Virus record (IMG/VR): IMGVR_UViG_3300021087_000027
Location: 1 to 43,781 of that record
Length of the DNA: 43,781 nucleotides
DNA from: a virus
Direction: 5' to 3' (one strand)
How positions within the stretch are numbered: position 1 is the stretch's first letter; the number at the start of each line of letters is the position of its first letter. The translations under genes were made by a program, and so were the position numbers. The notes under the pieces were generated by a model. That model did not search any database, was not told the DNA's origin, and saw only the letters and a program-made list of their open reading frames with translations. Positions 2,726 to 9,116 of this stretch are shown one piece after another.

Positions 2726-4243
2726 ATGGAATTGTTTGGATTTGAAATCAATCGGAAAAAGGAGCCGAAAGCTGCACAGTCTTTCGTTGCTCCTGATTCT
2801 GATGGTGCATTGGAAGCCATCCGTGGTGGTGGTTACTATGGCACTTATTTCGATGTCGAGGGAGTTGCTAATACTGAAGAGCAACTCATCAAGCGTTATC
2901 GGGACATATCAATGTATGCCGATATCGACACTGCAATCGAAGATATTGTCAATGATAGTATCTCGAACCTTGACGACGAAAAGCCAGTAACGATTGACAC
3001 AGATGGTGTCCCAGCGTCAACAGCTGTTAAGAAAGCAATCGCTGATGAATTTGACAATGTATTATCGTTGATGGACTTCAACAATCGTGCACAAGATTAC
3101 TACAGACGTTGGTACATCGATGGAAGAATTTACTTCCACAAAGTTGTCGATAAAACCAACCCAAGAAAAGGTCTACACGATGTCAGGTATATTGACCCAC
3201 GCAAAATAAAGAAAGTGCGTGATGTCAAGAAGGAAAAAGATCCTAAGACTGGCGTCAGTATGGTCAAAGAGGTAAAAGAGTATTTCATTTATGACGACAA
3301 GGGTATCGCTAACAAACCTGGACAGTATAAAGCAGGAAACGCTAACGATAAATCTCTGAAGATCTCGAAGGATGCTGTTACCTACATTCCCTCAGGTCTC
3401 TTAGACCAAGATAAAAATATCCCGTTGTCATATTTACACAAAGCTATCCGTCCAGCAAATCAGCTGAGAATGATGGAGAATGCTGTTGTTGTATACCGTA
3501 TTACCCGCGCTCCAGAGCGCAGAGTTTTTTATGTAGATACTGGTAATCTGCCCACAATGAAGGCAGAGCAGTATCTCAAAGATATTATGAATCGCTATCG
3601 TAACAAATTAGTTTATGATGGTGAGTCTGGAGAGATCCGTGACGACAAGAAGTTTATGTCGATGCTTGAAGACTTCTGGATGCCAAGACGCGAAGGCGGT
3701 AGAGGCACAGAGATTCAAACACTTCCAGGAGGTTCTAATCTCGGAGAAACTGGTGACGTAGATTACTTCCAACGCAAACTTTATCAAGCGTTGAATGTCC
3801 CCATCTCTAGATTAGAAGGTGCACAACAAGGTCTTAATTTCGGACGTAGTGCTGAGATTAGCAGAGATGAATTAAAGTTTACCAAGTTTATCGCAAAACT
3901 TCGTAGACGTTTTTCTGCAATGTTTGACGACTTGGTCAAGACGCAGCTGATTCTTAAAGGCATAATCACAGAAGATGATTGGCCAAGTATCCGCGATGGT
4001 CTACAATATAAGTATGCTTCCGATGCATACTACACTGAGTCTAAAGAGCAAGAGATCTTGCGTAGTCGGGTAGAAGTGTTGAATGGTCTATCTAACTATG
4101 TCGGTGAATACTTCTCTAAAGAGTATGTGCAAAAAGAAATTTTAAAAATGCGCGATGATGAAATCGACGCAATCAACAAGCAAATAGATGGTGAGTCCTT
4201 GAAGGTCGAGCCGCAACAATATGAAGGTGGAAATGATGAGTGA
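2726..4243 (+). CDS. 20: Portal vertex protein gp20
   Basis: This is the dodecameric portal at the capsid vertex that initiates prohead assembly, is the DNA channel, and docks terminase and neck. It is 505 residues against 524 in T4. Recognisable conserved blocks include IRGGGYYGTYFD-VEG near residue 33, IDTAIEDIVNDSI near residue 69, YIDPRKIKKVRDVKKE, and the family signature LEDFWMPRREGGRGTEIQTL followed by PGGSNLGE at about residues 312-340. After that come RLEGAQQGLNFGRSAEISRDE and a C-terminal helical region. A late promoter and ribosome site sit just upstream. The end overlaps the next small gene, consistent with coupled translation of a head-core operon. Confidence 0.97.
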   Translation: MELFGFEINRKKEPKAAQSFVAPDSDGALEAIRGGGYYGTYFDVEGVANTEEQLIKRYRDISMYADIDTAIEDIVNDSISNLDDEKPVTIDTDGVPASTAVKKAIADEFDNVLSLMDFNNRAQDYYRRWYIDGRIYFHKVVDKTNPRKGLHDVRYIDPRKIKKVRDVKKEKDPKTGVSMVKEVKEYFIYDDKGIANKPGQYKAGNANDKSLKISKDAVTYIPSGLLDQDKNIPLSYLHKAIRPANQLRMMENAVVVYRITRAPERRVFYVDTGNLPTMKAEQYLKDIMNRYRNKLVYDGESGEIRDDKKFMSMLEDFWMPRREGGRGTEIQTLPGGSNLGETGDVDYFQRKLYQALNVPISRLEGAQQGLNFGRSAEISRDELKFTKFIAKLRRRFSAMFDDLVKTQLILKGIITEDDWPSIRDGLQYKYASDAYYTESKEQEILRSRVEVLNGLSNYVGEYFSKEYVQKEILKMRDDEIDAINKQIDGESLKVEPQQYEGGNDE

Positions 4244-4499
4244 AGAAAACGTAGAACGTGAAGTTGAAAATGCACGTGCAGACGCAGTTCGTAATATGAT
4301 GGATCAGTGGAAGGATGGTAAACTGACAGATGCTCAGGATACATTCAATAGTATGATGAATGACCGTGCTGATGCAATGGTAGCTGATAGAAAAGCTGAA
4401 GTTGCTGGAAGTATGTTCAATCAACAAATAGAATTACCAGAACCGACTGCTGGCGATGTTGATGCTGCAGTTCCAACAGAACCAGAAACGGAAGAATAA
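4236..4499 (+). CDS. Small acidic head-core-like protein (gp67 position)
   Basis: This small, charged, probably helical protein is encoded between portal and the prohead protease. I chose the ATG at 4236 (MSEENVEREVENARAD) because a ggtgg ribosome-site-like sequence precedes it by 5 bases. ATGs at 4221 and 4233 are in the same frame, and with any of them the gene overlaps the end of the portal gene. From 4236 the product is 87 residues: glutamate- and aspartate-rich, no cysteine, with an acidic tail (TEPETEE). In T4 this position holds gp67, an 80-residue prohead core protein. Size, acidity and place fit that role, but I see no diagnostic motif, so the function is inferred from context. It ends 2 bases before the next gene. 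Confidence 0.7.
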   Translation: MSEENVEREVENARADAVRNMMDQWKDGKLTDAQDTFNSMMNDRADAMVADRKAEVAGSMFNQQIELPEPTAGDVDAAVPTEPETEE

Positions 4500-4500
4500 A

Positions 4501-5538
4501 ATGAAACCACTACCTAAAGATTTAGTTGATGTAGTAAGCCGAGTAATGAAAGGCGCACATCCAGTCGTTAAAGAAAGTGTCGCAAAAGATGCTGCCCATA
4601 TGGCAAGACTGAGAACAAACGCATATATTGGCGATGGCAGTGAAGCCACTGTTAATAAGGCACACCAAGCCAATATTAAGAAACATGGTGAAAAGGTCGC
4701 CAAAGCCATTCACACAAATGCTGATCATGAAGCAGCACATAATGCTACTAGCGTTGGATCTGCTGGGCATAAAGTACACAACGACTTTGTTAAAAATCAT
4801 TTAGGCGGTCACGGTTCTGCTGGTCACAAAGATTACCATAAGCATATGGAAAAGAAGTATATGGACAGCATTTCTGAAGGTTATGTTCTAACAGAAAGCG
4901 AAGTTGCAAAATCTTCTGCAAACCTCACTGCACACATGATTGATCATAATATCGGTGAGGGCAGTCATGCTGCTGTTAAGATGGCACACCAAGCCAATAT
5001 TAAGAAACACGGTGCAGAGGTTGCCAACGCTATCCACGCAAATGCTTCCCACGAAGCTGCCCATAACGTCGGTGCTATTGGTGACGGCAACGCTTCCACT
5101 ACCGCTAAGAACTCCCATGAGAGTTTTGTTAAAACTCATTTAGGCGGTCATGGTTCTGCTACTCATAAAGCATACCATAAGCATATGGAAGCAAATCATA
5201 CATCTAGTTTGAGCCACCCAAAAGGTCGCGGTGTTAATGAAAATTATGCTCTAACAGAAGAAGAGGAATGTGTCAATAAGCCAGAAGCTGAAGAGCCAAC
5301 TGCGAACCATGGTGCAGCAGAGGCAGGTAATGCAGGAGATAAAACTCCTCCGACGCAAGGCAGTTCCGACACAACCAAATTTTACATGGCTCCAAATGCT
5401 CAAGTAATGCACGCCAAAGAAGGTAAGGGAAATGTTCTTGCTACTATGGGCGAAGGCGTTGATGCTGTTGCTGAAGTTATGTTCAAAGAATCATTAAAAC
5501 GTATCCCAGTTTGGGAACTAGAACCAGTAGAGGAATAA
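4501..5538 (+). CDS. His-rich duplicated protein in the head-core block (gp68 position), function unknown
   Basis: This 345-residue protein was not recognised as a named family. It contains two diverged copies of a unit of about 110 residues (roughly 37-132 and 145-252). Each has a conserved AHQANIKKHG segment (residues 54-63 and 162-171), a (D/S)HEAAHN segment, an HLGGHGSA(G/T)HK segment and a YHKHME segment. Histidines are unusually frequent. The tail (about 256-345) is different: acidic and Pro/Gly-rich, with a TQGSSD motif also found in the scaffold. The ATG at 4501 follows ggaag; an in-frame upstream ATG at 4456 lies inside the previous gene and is rejected. Several (I/L)xE-(S/G) sites that could suit the prohead protease occur at 126/127, 132/133 and 153/154. 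Its place suggests a prohead core or internal head protein, which is inference only. Confidence 0.75.
   Translation: MKPLPKDLVDVVSRVMKGAHPVVKESVAKDAAHMARLRTNAYIGDGSEATVNKAHQANIKKHGEKVAKAIHTNADHEAAHNATSVGSAGHKVHNDFVKNHLGGHGSAGHKDYHKHMEKKYMDSISEGYVLTESEVAKSSANLTAHMIDHNIGEGSHAAVKMAHQANIKKHGAEVANAIHANASHEAAHNVGAIGDGNASTTAKNSHESFVKTHLGGHGSATHKAYHKHMEANHTSSLSHPKGRGVNENYALTEEEECVNKPEAEEPTANHGAAEAGNAGDKTPPTQGSSDTTKFYMAPNAQVMHAKEGKGNVLATMGEGVDAVAEVMFKESLKRIPVWELEPVEE
4659..5009 (+). repeat. 27-base identical direct repeat within the His-rich gene
   Basis: The stretch beginning ggcacaccaagccaatatta is identical over 27 bases at 4659-4685 and 4983-5009, 324 bases (108 codons) apart. A second similar pair (catttaggcggtca) begins at 4798 and 5137. 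This marks an internal gene duplication. Confidence 0.85.
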
Positions 5539-5542
5539 TTAA

Positions 5543-5929
5543 ATGGCAGTCACAGTTGACACATTAAAATTGACGCAAACCCATGGCGTGGTCGCTGTCC
5601 GAGGGACTGCCGCTACTGGGACGATTGCGTTGGCTACAACTCTGAAGAAGTCTACAGAAACGCAAGCATCGCCTACTGTGAATATCAAGAACATTCAGTG
5701 GGCATTATCAAGCGGTGCTTCTGCGCAGGTAACAAGGAATTCTAAAGTATTATACGAACTTCAAGTTACAGGTCGTATGGACTTTTATGGGTTTACAGAC
5801 AACGATGAGAACACATCAGACATCGCAATTGTAATTGCTGGCGGTGCAGGCGGCACAGTTATTGTAGAGTGCGCCAAAGTTTCTGGATATGGTTCTCAGC
5901 AGCATCAGAATCAAGGAGATCTAGGATAA
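5543..5929 (+). CDS. Conserved phage structural protein between portal and protease, function unknown
   Basis: This is a 128-residue, beta-rich protein with no cysteine-rich or catalytic motif; one Cys lies near the end. The pattern is VVAVRGTAATGTIALATTL, then IKNIQWALSSGASAQVTRN, then LQVTGRMDFYGFTDNDENTS and VIAGGAGGTVIVECAKVSG. Small proteins of this layout are, as far as I recall, common in marine T4-like phages next to the head genes, usually listed as structural proteins of unknown function. It starts 4 bases after the His-rich gene and its TAA overlaps the ATG of the protease (TAATG), so it is translated in the same operon. A head surface or internal structural role is plausible but not shown by the sequence. 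Confidence 0.75.
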   Translation: MAVTVDTLKLTQTHGVVAVRGTAATGTIALATTLKKSTETQASPTVNIKNIQWALSSGASAQVTRNSKVLYELQVTGRMDFYGFTDNDENTSDIAIVIAGGAGGTVIVECAKVSGYGSQQHQNQGDLG

Positions 5930-6582
5930 TGAAACTTATTAAAGAACTCGTAGAGGATGTTCAATACATCCTCGAAGAAAAAGACGGGAAGAAAGAACTC
6001 TTCATCGAAGGTGTTTTTCTACAATCCAATCTAAAAAACCGCAACGGTCGTGTATATCCTAAAGAGATTATGGCGAAAGAAGTTGCACGTTACACCGAAG
6101 ACTGCATCAATAAGAACCGTGCTCTAGGCGAATTGGGTCATCCAGATGGTCCAACGGTAAATCTTGATCGCGTTTCTCATATGATTGTCTCTCTTAAAGA
6201 AGATGGAGACAACTGGATCGGTAAGGCAAAAGTCCTTGACACTCCTATGGGTAAGATTGCTGCAGGTTTAATTGAAGCAGGTTGTCAGCTTGGTGTAAGT
6301 TCTCGTGGTCTAGGATCTATCCGTGAGAAGTCAGGCATCAGCGAAGTACAAGACGACTTTATGTTGGCAACTGCTGCTGATATCGTATCAGACCCATCTG
6401 CTCCCGATGCCTTTGTACAAGGTATTATGGAAAGCCGTGAGTGGGTTATGGTTGACGGTATCTGGCAAGGAAGAGAAATGGAAAGGGCTCAAGAGATTAT
6501 CAAAGAAGCCAGTTCCCATGAACTAGAAGCCACCAAGATGGCGGTGTTTAGCTCATTCCTTAACAAAGTATCAAAGATTTAA
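5929..6582 (+). CDS. 21: Prohead core protease gp21
   Basis: This serine protease sits inside the prohead and cuts scaffold, core and capsid proteins during maturation. It is 217 residues from the ATG at 5929, close to T4 gp21 (212 aa). That start has an aaggag site at 5913-5918 and overlaps the previous stop; an in-frame extension to 5869 is rejected. The herpesvirus-assemblin-like catalytic positions are visible: His71 in GELGHPDGPTVNLDRVSH, and Ser124 or Ser125 in QLGVSSRGLGS. The following DIVSDPSAPDAFVQG block is also conserved. N-terminal SNLKNRNGRVYP is typical of the family. A late promoter follows before the scaffold gene. Confidence 0.95.
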   Translation: MKLIKELVEDVQYILEEKDGKKELFIEGVFLQSNLKNRNGRVYPKEIMAKEVARYTEDCINKNRALGELGHPDGPTVNLDRVSHMIVSLKEDGDNWIGKAKVLDTPMGKIAAGLIEAGCQLGVSSRGLGSIREKSGISEVQDDFMLATAADIVSDPSAPDAFVQGIMESREWVMVDGIWQGREMERAQEIIKEASSHELEATKMAVFSSFLNKVSKI

Positions 6583-6629: not shown

Positions 6630-7814
6630 ATGGCTGTAGAAAGCAAAATCAGAGAACTTCTGAAAGGTAAGCCAGAAATGGTGACTGAAGAAGTCAATGA
6701 ACTAGACGAGTCTGCATCACGTCCCGCAGACAGATCACAAGGCGATGCTTCTGCTCCAGCACAAGGTTCATCAGACGCTAATCCAGAACAAGAAACACTG
6801 GAAACTGATGGGTTGAGTGCTACTGCAGGAAAATCTGCCACCGCTAAAGCAAAGAAAGACAGTAGCAAGAACGCTTCTAGTCCTACTGCTGGCGATCAAA
6901 CCTCACCAACTCAAGGTTCTTCGAAAACTGCATCTACTGGAGGTCAGGTAAATAAGCCTGGAACTTCAGCTGATGTAAAAGCTGAAGACACTGAGTCTGA
7001 AGACGAAGTTCTTGAAGAAGAAATCACAGACGAAGAAGTTGAAGCTGAACTCGAAGAAGAGTCTGCTGAAGAAGTCGATGAAGTATTGGAAGAAGATACA
7101 TTGTTCCAAGATGACATGACTAACTTGTTCGCTGATGAAGAGCATCTGTCGGAAGAATTTAAAGTTAAAGCTGCTGGCTTGTTTGAAGCTGTTGTTACAG
7201 CCCGTGTTACTTCTGAAATGGAAGACATTAAAGCTGAACTAGCTGAAGAAGCTGCACTAGCACAAGATACATTCATGGAAGATATGGTACAGAAAATCGA
7301 TGGTTATCTGAACTATGTAGCCGAAAACTGGATGAAAGAAAATGAACTCGCTATTGAGCGCGGTCTGCGCAACGAGATCACTGAATCATTCGTCGGCTCC
7401 TTGAAAGAAGTTTTTGCCGAGCATTACATTGATATTCCTGAAGAGAAATACGATGTTCTGGGCGAAATGCAGGGTGAAATTGAATCACTCAAAGCCAAGC
7501 TGGATGAGTCGACTGAAGAGAAAGTCGCCCTATCCTCTGCCAATGTAGACCTCTCAAGAGATGCTGCACTCAAAGAAGCAACTGCTGACTTGACTGTAAC
7601 TGAAGCTGAGAAGTTTGCGAAACTCGTTGAAGACGTTGAGTTTGATGGCGATTACTCTGTTAAGCTGAGTGTGATTAAGGAAAATTATTTCCCTACACAG
7701 AAAGCATTGCAGGAAGAAGACAAATTGATTGACGACGAAAGTGTTGTGATCAATGAAGATTCTTCACCAATCAGCATCTATGCCCAAGCGATTTCGAAAT
7801 CGGTAAAAAGATAA
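6630..7814 (+). CDS. 22: Prohead scaffold (core) protein gp22
   Basis: This is the internal scaffold around which gp23 assembles; it is later degraded by gp21. It is 394 residues, longer than T4 gp22 (269 aa). The first 115 residues are low-complexity Ser/Ala/Thr/Gly with two QGSS motifs (45-48 and 95-98). Residues 117-160 are strongly acidic (many EE and DE pairs), and residues 160-335 are mostly charged and helix-forming, likely coiled coil. Candidate protease sites of the (L/I)xE-S kind occur at 27/28, 252/253 and 293/294. Position between gp21 and gp23, size, acidity and helical character identify it. The N-terminal low-complexity extension is unlike T4. Confidence 0.9.
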   Translation: MAVESKIRELLKGKPEMVTEEVNELDESASRPADRSQGDASAPAQGSSDANPEQETLETDGLSATAGKSATAKAKKDSSKNASSPTAGDQTSPTQGSSKTASTGGQVNKPGTSADVKAEDTESEDEVLEEEITDEEVEAELEEESAEEVDEVLEEDTLFQDDMTNLFADEEHLSEEFKVKAAGLFEAVVTARVTSEMEDIKAELAEEAALAQDTFMEDMVQKIDGYLNYVAENWMKENELAIERGLRNEITESFVGSLKEVFAEHYIDIPEEKYDVLGEMQGEIESLKAKLDESTEEKVALSSANVDLSRDAALKEATADLTVTEAEKFAKLVEDVEFDGDYSVKLSVIKENYFPTQKALQEEDKLIDDESVVINEDSSPISIYAQAISKSVKR

Positions 7815-7871: not shown

Positions 7872-9116
7872 ATGTATCTTTCAGAATCACAAATGGAAAA
7901 ATGGGCTCCAGTACTGGACCACCCAGAACTTCCACAAATTAAGGATGCGCACCGCAGAAATGTGACTGCTGTTATTCTTGAAAACCAAGAAAAAGCTCTT
8001 CGTCAAGAGAAAGTTGCTCTTCACGAAAGCGAAAACGCTGTAGCAAACGCTGACAACTACGATCCCGTATTGATCAGCCTTGTTCGTCGTGCGCTGCCAA
8101 ACTTGATGGCATACGATGTTTGTGGTGTTCAGCCAATGACTGGTCCAACTGGACTGATCTTTGCGATGAAATCGCACTACACTAGCAAAACTGGTACTGA
8201 AGCCCTGTTCAACGAAGCTGACACAGACTTCTCTGGTACTGGCACTCACGCTGGTTCTAACCCAGTTGACGGTACTTACACAACTGGTACTGGCATGGCT
8301 ACTGCCACTGGTGAAGCACTTGACCCTGCAGAGATGGCATTCTCGATCGAGAAAACTTCTGTAACTGCTAAGACACGCGCACTGAAAGCAGAGTACACAA
8401 TCGAACTGGCACAAGACTTGAAAGCAATCCACGGTCTTGACGCTGAGAGCGAATTGTCGAACATTCTGTCTCAGGAAATTTTGGCTGAAATCAACCGTGA
8501 GGTGATCCGCACAATCTATAAAGTTGCAAAACCTGGTTCTGCTTCTACTGCTACTGCTGGTACTTTTGACCTTGACGTCGACTCTAACGGTCGTTGGTCG
8601 GTTGAGCGTTTCAAAGGTCTTCTGTTCAACATTGAACGTGATGCCAACGTAATTGCTCAAGAGACTCGTCGCGGTAAAGGTAACTTCATCGTATGTTCTT
8701 CTGATGTTGCTTCTGCTCTGGCAATGGCTGGTGTTCTGGATTATGCTCCAGCACTGAACACAGATCTGAATGTTGATGATACTGGTAACACTTTTGCTGG
8801 TGTATTGAACGGTCGTTACAAAGTGTACATCGATCCATACTCCGCTAACACTGGTGCTGCTTCTCAGTTCTACACAGTTGGCTACAAAGGTACTTCGGCA
8901 TATGATGCTGGTATCTTCTACTGCCCATATGTGCCGCTGCAGCAAGTACGTGCAATCGATCCTGCCGACTTCCAGCCAAAAATCGGCTTCAAGACTCGTT
9001 ACGGTATGGTTGCTAATCCATTCGTTACCCAAGCTGACGGAACTACTGATGCTGCTACTTTCACTGCTGATCGTAACCAGTACTACAGAAGCGTTAAAGT
9101 AACAAACTTGATGTAA
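7872..9116 (+). CDS. 23: Major capsid protein gp23
   Basis: This HK97-fold subunit forms the hexamers of the head shell. It is 414 residues, shorter than T4 gp23 (521 aa). The conserved block LVRRALPNLMAYDVCGVQPM begins at residue 70, followed by GPTGLIFAM. C-terminal motifs include YVPLQQVRAIDPADFQPKIG and FKTRYGMVANPF. The N-terminal 52 residues are charged and resemble the propeptide removed by gp21. A likely cut is LHE|S at 52/53, placed like the T4 cut just before the conserved block (inference). No separate vertex gene gp24 follows. Its base composition (richer in GC, with many CGT, CTG and ATC codons) contrasts with the AT-rich genes to the right. Confidence 0.97.
   Translation: MYLSESQMEKWAPVLDHPELPQIKDAHRRNVTAVILENQEKALRQEKVALHESENAVANADNYDPVLISLVRRALPNLMAYDVCGVQPMTGPTGLIFAMKSHYTSKTGTEALFNEADTDFSGTGTHAGSNPVDGTYTTGTGMATATGEALDPAEMAFSIEKTSVTAKTRALKAEYTIELAQDLKAIHGLDAESELSNILSQEILAEINREVIRTIYKVAKPGSASTATAGTFDLDVDSNGRWSVERFKGLLFNIERDANVIAQETRRGKGNFIVCSSDVASALAMAGVLDYAPALNTDLNVDDTGNTFAGVLNGRYKVYIDPYSANTGAASQFYTVGYKGTSAYDAGIFYCPYVPLQQVRAIDPADFQPKIGFKTRYGMVANPFVTQADGTTDAATFTADRNQYYRSVKVTNLM

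Follow-up and report, generated by a model that had tools for sequence, protein, structure and literature searches.

A His-rich protein in the head operon

The window analysed here is the whole 43,781-nucleotide stretch of IMG/VR virus record IMGVR_UViG_3300021087_000027. It contains an open reading frame that begins with ATG at 4501, encodes 345 amino acids and has a stop codon ending at 5538. We refer to its product as the slot protein. The gene belongs to a run of head genes in the order gp20, gp67-like, slot protein, 128-aa ORF, gp21, gp22 and gp23, with the following features (here and below, ↓ marks a known or candidate cleavage junction):

2726..4243, + strand: gp20 portal, context (phrog_213, E 5e-201)
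4221..4499, + strand: gp67-like acidic core protein, context (weak match, phrog_1064, E 5e-4)
4501..5538, + strand: slot protein, 345 aa, comprising an N-terminal segment, two His-rich units, an acidic linker and a Tudor-like domain
4501..4572, + strand: N-terminal segment, residues 1-24, MKPLPKDLVDVVSRVMKGAHPVVK; replaces the CTS-like N-terminus (MKTF..F or MKTLKTLIAE) of relatives
4573..4896, + strand: His-rich unit 1, residues 25-132, with C-terminal LTE
4875..4896, + strand: seam repeat copy 1, coding for EGYVLTE; predicted gp21 cut after E132
4897..5259, + strand: His-rich unit 2, residues 133-253, with C-terminal LTE; missing in contig L004
5238..5259, + strand: seam repeat copy 2, coding for ENYALTE; predicted gp21 cut after E253
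5260..5376, + strand: acidic linker, EECVNKPEAEEPTANHG...GDKTPPTQGSS; similar motif in the gp22 N-terminus
5377..5535, + strand: predicted UvrD/PcrA-type Tudor-like beta-barrel, residues 293-345
5543..5929, + strand: 128-aa ORF, context; near-constant length among relatives
5929..6582, + strand: gp21 prohead protease, family S77, context (PF03420)
6630..7814, + strand: gp22 scaffold, context (PF25623)
7872..9116, + strand: gp23 major capsid protein, context (PF07068); propeptide junction VALHE↓SENAV

Because the gene is flanked by genes for the portal, a gp67-like protein, the S77 protease, the scaffold and gp23, we assign it to the slot that corresponds to the gp67/gp68 region of the T4-like head operon. 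The closest named phages are marine Kyanoviridae, with ~54% identity in the portal. The earlier note had set the gene between portal and protease, in the place of the T4 core proteins gp67 and gp68, and this proved right in kind; the equation with gp68 itself found no sequence support. As in T4, the slot gene lies between portal and gp21 and its product is a probable gp21 substrate. Like gp68, it follows gp67 and precedes gp21, the gp67-like assignment being itself weak (the ORF at 4221..4499 gave no BLASTP match to T4 gp67). However, T4 gp68 has no repeat of the slot-protein type, and homology to gp68 was rejected: hhalign of slot family A6 against T4 gp68 gave a probability of 0.1%. By tblastn with the window protein and two unit-less members, the slot family was absent from GenBank phages.

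The 128-aa ORF (5543-5929), directly 5' of gp21, is probably beta-rich and its length is strongly conserved; it had no significant match in Pfam or PHROG.

Two duplicated His-rich units

Histidine accounts for 32 of the 345 residues of the slot protein (9.3%), compared with an average of 1.6% across the window's ORFs and 4.2% in the second-highest. The earlier note had described two diverged His-rich units with conserved AHQANIKKHG, HEAAHN, HLGGHGSA and YHKHME segments, and our analysis confirmed this description: the units, of ~107-120 aa each, share these segments and are 57% identical. They make up residues ~25-253 alone; the last 92 residues form the acidic linker and a separate beta-barrel domain. 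At the DNA level, the units are 81% identical across 118 nt and 89% identical across 66 nt. The dN/dS ratio between them is 0.39 overall and 0.18 in the AHQANIKKHG...HEAAHN core, and 11 of the 13 aligned His residues of unit 1 are retained in unit 2, as against 53% identity elsewhere (Fisher P 0.038). Together, unit identity, dN/dS and His retention indicate that the duplication is real and old, and that the protein is under purifying selection.

Searches with the His units against Pfam, PHROGs, NCBIfam, PDB sequences, GenBank phages and GTDB genomes returned no match that passed a useful threshold. AlphaFold modelled one unit as all-helical with a pLDDT of 53 (low confidence), which is too weak for the single-unit model to be suited to a fold search. 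The previous view that the protein has no described family holds for the His units, whereas the C-terminus resembles a UvrD/PcrA Tudor domain.

A predicted Tudor-like domain at the C-terminus

The AlphaFold model of residues ~300-342 is a five-strand barrel with pLDDT values mostly of 72-87. With this predicted model as the query, the best PDB matches in Foldseek were the Tudor domains of UvrD/PcrA, followed by Mfd and CarD/CdnL, all of them RNA polymerase-binding parts of bacterial proteins; 9dqs_A matched with an rmsd of 1.5 and a TMt of 0.84, and 5dma with a TMt of 0.78. Across the PcrA/UvrD Tudor comparisons, the rmsd was 1.4-1.6 A over ~50 residues, and a V-x-H-x-K-x-G-x-G signature was shared. 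VIA-align gave Z 8.0 with the UvrD Tudors (7egs_B, 9dqs_A); because unrelated Tudors reach Z 7.0-7.6, we accept the Tudor fold and are less sure of the UvrD subfamily. The corresponding Pfam family, PF21196, matched 7 of 7 members tested (best E 5.4e-4), with listed scores of 13.0 to 18.2 bits that did not reach its gathering score of 23.9 bits. These models predict a UvrD/PcrA-type Tudor barrel at the C-terminus of the slot protein, one that, unlike its namesakes, is not attached to a helicase.

Alignment with E. coli UvrD sets VMHAKEGKGNVL of the window against VRHAKFGEGTIV, and SLKRI against GIKWL. We carried these positions over to PcrA numbers by a mapping that is in part our assumption. 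By this mapping, the positions of PcrA H681, W684, K712 and L714 hold H, E, K and I in the window, and the K712 position holds N, Q or E in other family members. These are the four PcrA residues mutated for RNA polymerase contact (PMC5397179). Because W is replaced by E and L by I, and K is changed in other members, RNA polymerase binding by the slot protein is a prediction.

The motif at the end of the acidic linker has a counterpart in gp22, whose N-terminus (window positions 6630-7000) carries QGDASAPAQGSS and GDQTSPTQGSS, close to the GDKTPPTQGSS of the slot protein. This linker motif is thus common to two head-core proteins.

The His-rich units as a swappable cassette

Near-identical IMG/VR contigs differ in their number of units (none in L007, one in L004, and two in L001, L002 and the window) within flanking DNA that is ~97% identical. 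These alleles are drawn from metagenome assemblies, each close allele representing one or few contigs, and the 1-unit and 0-unit forms were each seen as a single example. A 22-nt repeat at each unit end codes for E-G/N-Y-V/A-L-T-E, and what is missing from the L004 allele is precisely unit 2, with the junction inside this LTE-coding repeat. More distant relatives retain the N- and C-terminal parts only. In L040, which belongs to another phage group, the corresponding region of the slot protein contains a different ~90-aa insert (3984-4280, KFQKQWRQGARQVKKGNITLVRGARGG...), with no match in PHROG or GenBank phages. Among 60 distinct slot proteins, length ranged from 99 to 345 aa (CV 0.29), compared with a CV of 0.012 for the next ORF. 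As judged from these alleles, the His-rich units are a swappable cassette.

We also observed, in the slot region of L077 (1376-2281), a different 301-aa protein (phrog_5709) with its own duplicated LDELSKxTLxxY units.

Predicted gp21 sites and CTS-like N-termini

The cleavage motif of T4 gp21 is L/I-x-E (PMC9026906), and T4 Alt is cleaved at ITE and LTE (PMC5694885). LTE132 and LTE253, at the ends of the units, match in sequence the gp21-type L/I-x-E that stands between propeptide and mature part. The gp23 proteins of the clade have [LIF]xE↓[AS] at the propeptide junction, a pattern that the window's VALHE↓SENAV fits; the P1' residue is E or S at the slot-protein sites and mostly A, S or T in gp23. 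Because the count of L/I-x-E sites in the slot protein (four) is not above chance (P 0.12), the case for cut sites rests on position and conservation. No L/I-x-E site occurs upstream of unit 1, and within the units the only ones beyond the unit-end LTE are IGE153 and ISE126, near the unit ends. At the seam, [LIM]-T-E is kept in every close form, and the site of seam copy 2 is kept as [LI]xE↓E in close relatives without units. The final LTE↓EEE is homologous both to the LTE↓EEE of the 0-unit allele and to MKTLKTLIAE↓EE, MKTLKTLITE↓EE and MKTLKTLISE↓EE of relatives. From this arrangement we infer that the units lie on the propeptide side of a conserved cut site, and each His-rich module likely ends in a site for the protease.

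The T4 CTS comprises 10 residues, with cleavage determined at residues 8 and 10 (PMC9026906); T4 IPII and IPIII begin MKTYQEFIAE↓A. The MKTLKTLI(A/T/S)E start of close unit-less relatives has the layout of the T4 CTS MKTYQEFIAE, and 49 of the 60 slot-family members begin with MK[TKI][FY]..[FL]. When a strict CTS regex was applied to 3175 distinct N-termini, it matched the slot family, T4 IPII/IPIII, one S-H38 enzyme and nothing else, against a background that is not neutral because the contigs behind it were partly picked for carrying the slot gene. The window protein itself starts MKPLPKDLV, which matches neither the CTS consensus nor the T4-type targeting peptide (10-19 residues, with aromatics at positions 4 and 7), and a looser CTS regex matched 0 of the 31 window ORFs. 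These comparisons indicate that the CTS consensus has been lost from the window N-terminus.

Distant relatives of the His-rich unit

We used the pattern HLGGxGSAxHxxY to find distant relatives of the unit and obtained matches, beyond the known contigs, in L184, L188, L189 and L190-L192. In L184, the gene for the unit-like protein is followed by one ORF and then gp21, gp22 and gp23, which is the same slot. In L190-L192, the unit-like protein is free-standing, is 127 aa long and has a CTS-like start, MKTFDEIRGNLINE↓N.... A 17-residue motif is common to the window unit, the L184 slot protein and the stand-alone protein of L190 and L192. Full-length HMM E-values were 4e-12 for L184, 1e-8 for L190 and 4e-6 for L189, compared with ~5e-3 for chance motif matches. 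The sequence before the motif in L184, L189 and L190 showed no significant similarity in either search direction, so homology of these proteins to the window units is likely but unproven, the link being mainly the search motif HLGGHGSAxHKxY. Further pattern matches, in L187, L193-L198 and L186, fell in unrelated ORFs and were rejected as chance.

The stand-alone His-unit protein is encoded in a gene cluster with CTS-like N-termini (L190:4581-8884 and L192:2-4585). The cluster includes a DUF6267 protein (MNFIDFIAE↓Q), a 273-aa protein (MMKFKSYLRE) and a cytidylyltransferase (VNSFRSYLIEE↓S, if an upstream GTG is the start). It may be a group of enzymes that a T4-like phage packages.

Proposed role of the slot protein

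The earlier note had suggested a core or packaged internal protein. Gene order, the LTE sites, the CTS-like N-termini of relatives and the CTS-like stand-alone relative go some way toward supporting this suggestion. We favor, with a probability of roughly 0.58, a CTS-type prohead-core or internal protein in which a His-rich cassette releasable by gp21 is combined with a Tudor domain that binds protein. The N-terminal part would carry the protein into the prohead core, and the two ~12-kDa helical His-rich units would form a cassette within the propeptide region, every unit carrying its own gp21 site (LTE). During maturation, gp21 would cut after E132 and E253 to yield three products: the N-terminus joined to unit 1, unit 2 on its own, and the Tudor part. 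Most likely the His units would be retained in the head as internal proteins alongside the packed DNA, and the Tudor part may bind a partner, which could be a further core protein or, following ejection, the RNA polymerase of the host. Packaging, cleavage and release, along with every binding activity (metal, polymerase), are what we infer from the features described above.

Among known systems, T4 IPII and IPIII share with the slot family an N-terminus (MKTF..F or MKTLKTLI(A/T/S)E, resembling MKTYQEFIAE↓A), L/I-x-E sites, the character of a small, variable and dispensable cassette, and a relation to the head. In contrast to these T4 proteins, the slot protein is encoded within the head operon, and is fused to a Tudor-like domain; its units are arranged in tandem, carry one site apiece and are His-rich rather than Lys/Arg-rich, and its N-terminus in the window has diverged.

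The main rival is a pure core scaffold. In such a scaffold, the units would be bulk that gp21 degrades and expels, as happens to T4 gp67, gp68 and gp22, and their copy number would tune core volume with nothing functional delivered. We consider this possible, though doubtful. It would account for the location of the gene in the gp67/gp68 region and for the unit-less alleles, which indicate that the units are dispensable, and T4 core proteins are indeed cut into fragments that exit the head (PMC9026906). However, purifying selection with preferential retention of His exceeds the needs of bulk, the unit cores contain no L/I-x-E other than the two sites near their ends, and a motif-sharing unit stands free behind a CTS-like N-terminus, away from head genes.

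A more ambitious version of delivery, which we hold to be unlikely, is a two-part device brought in by the virion, in which tandem His cargo would be joined to a Tudor domain of the UvrD type that would engage the RNA polymerase of the host on genome entry. With a protease site for each module, copies could be gained or lost without breaking processing, and by analogy the device would parallel T4 Alt without being enzymatic.

Alternatively, the protein might stay full-length in the capsid as an uncleaved structural component, with His clusters that bind metal or DNA and stabilise the head or the packed genome. The high His content, the conservation of His between units and a predicted charge that shifts from ~0 at pH 7.5 to ~+7 at pH 6 per unit are compatible with such a role. 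We regard it as improbable, given that [LI]xE is conserved at the seams of the modules, next to a gp21 gene, and that the i,i+4 spacing of His in the units is slightly above chance but non-significant (P 0.10-0.14); metal-site geometry inferred from His spacing was rejected on the latter ground. Just as improbable is a delivered enzyme or antidefence effector, for instance a small zinc hydrolase of the HExxH type or an inhibitor of restriction similar to T4 IPI*: a host-restriction arms race may explain why T4-like internal proteins are poorly conserved (PMC9026906), and HEAAH (HExxH) is retained in both window units, but HExxH also occurs in 9-13% of shuffled units and is missing from the unit-like proteins of L184, L189 and L192, which makes a zinc peptidase unconvincing, and the units have an all-helical, low-confidence model, and searches of Pfam, PHROG, NCBIfam and PDB gave them no useful match.

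If the favored reading of a prohead-core protein with a releasable cassette is true, a single head-core gene serves T4-like marine phages as a docking slot for cargo that can be exchanged and released by protease, prohead-protease sites double as recombination seams, and there is a simple evolutionary route to new packaged proteins. A domain of the polymerase-binding type would point to a role in early host takeover. The gene group is currently annotated as 'hypothetical' or mislabelled as cytidylyltransferase.

The Tudor-like domain of more distant slot members also occurs in cyanophage T4-GC 534 proteins (P-HM1_163 and the S-H38 774-aa protein; phrog_22379, phrog_11470). These proteins adjoin a cytidylyltransferase, with a CTS-like N-terminus in S-H38, and differ from the slot protein in being large multidomain proteins outside the head operon in which no His-rich unit was seen. 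In S-H38 (L097:2571-6052), the cytidylyltransferase MKSYKEFLSE↓A adjoins the 774-aa protein with the Tudor-like domain. P-HM1_163 (L098:3470-4777) is labelled 'possible cytitidyltransferase'; the part that it has in common with other phages is the Tudor-like domain, and the label was apparently transferred from the adjacent gene.
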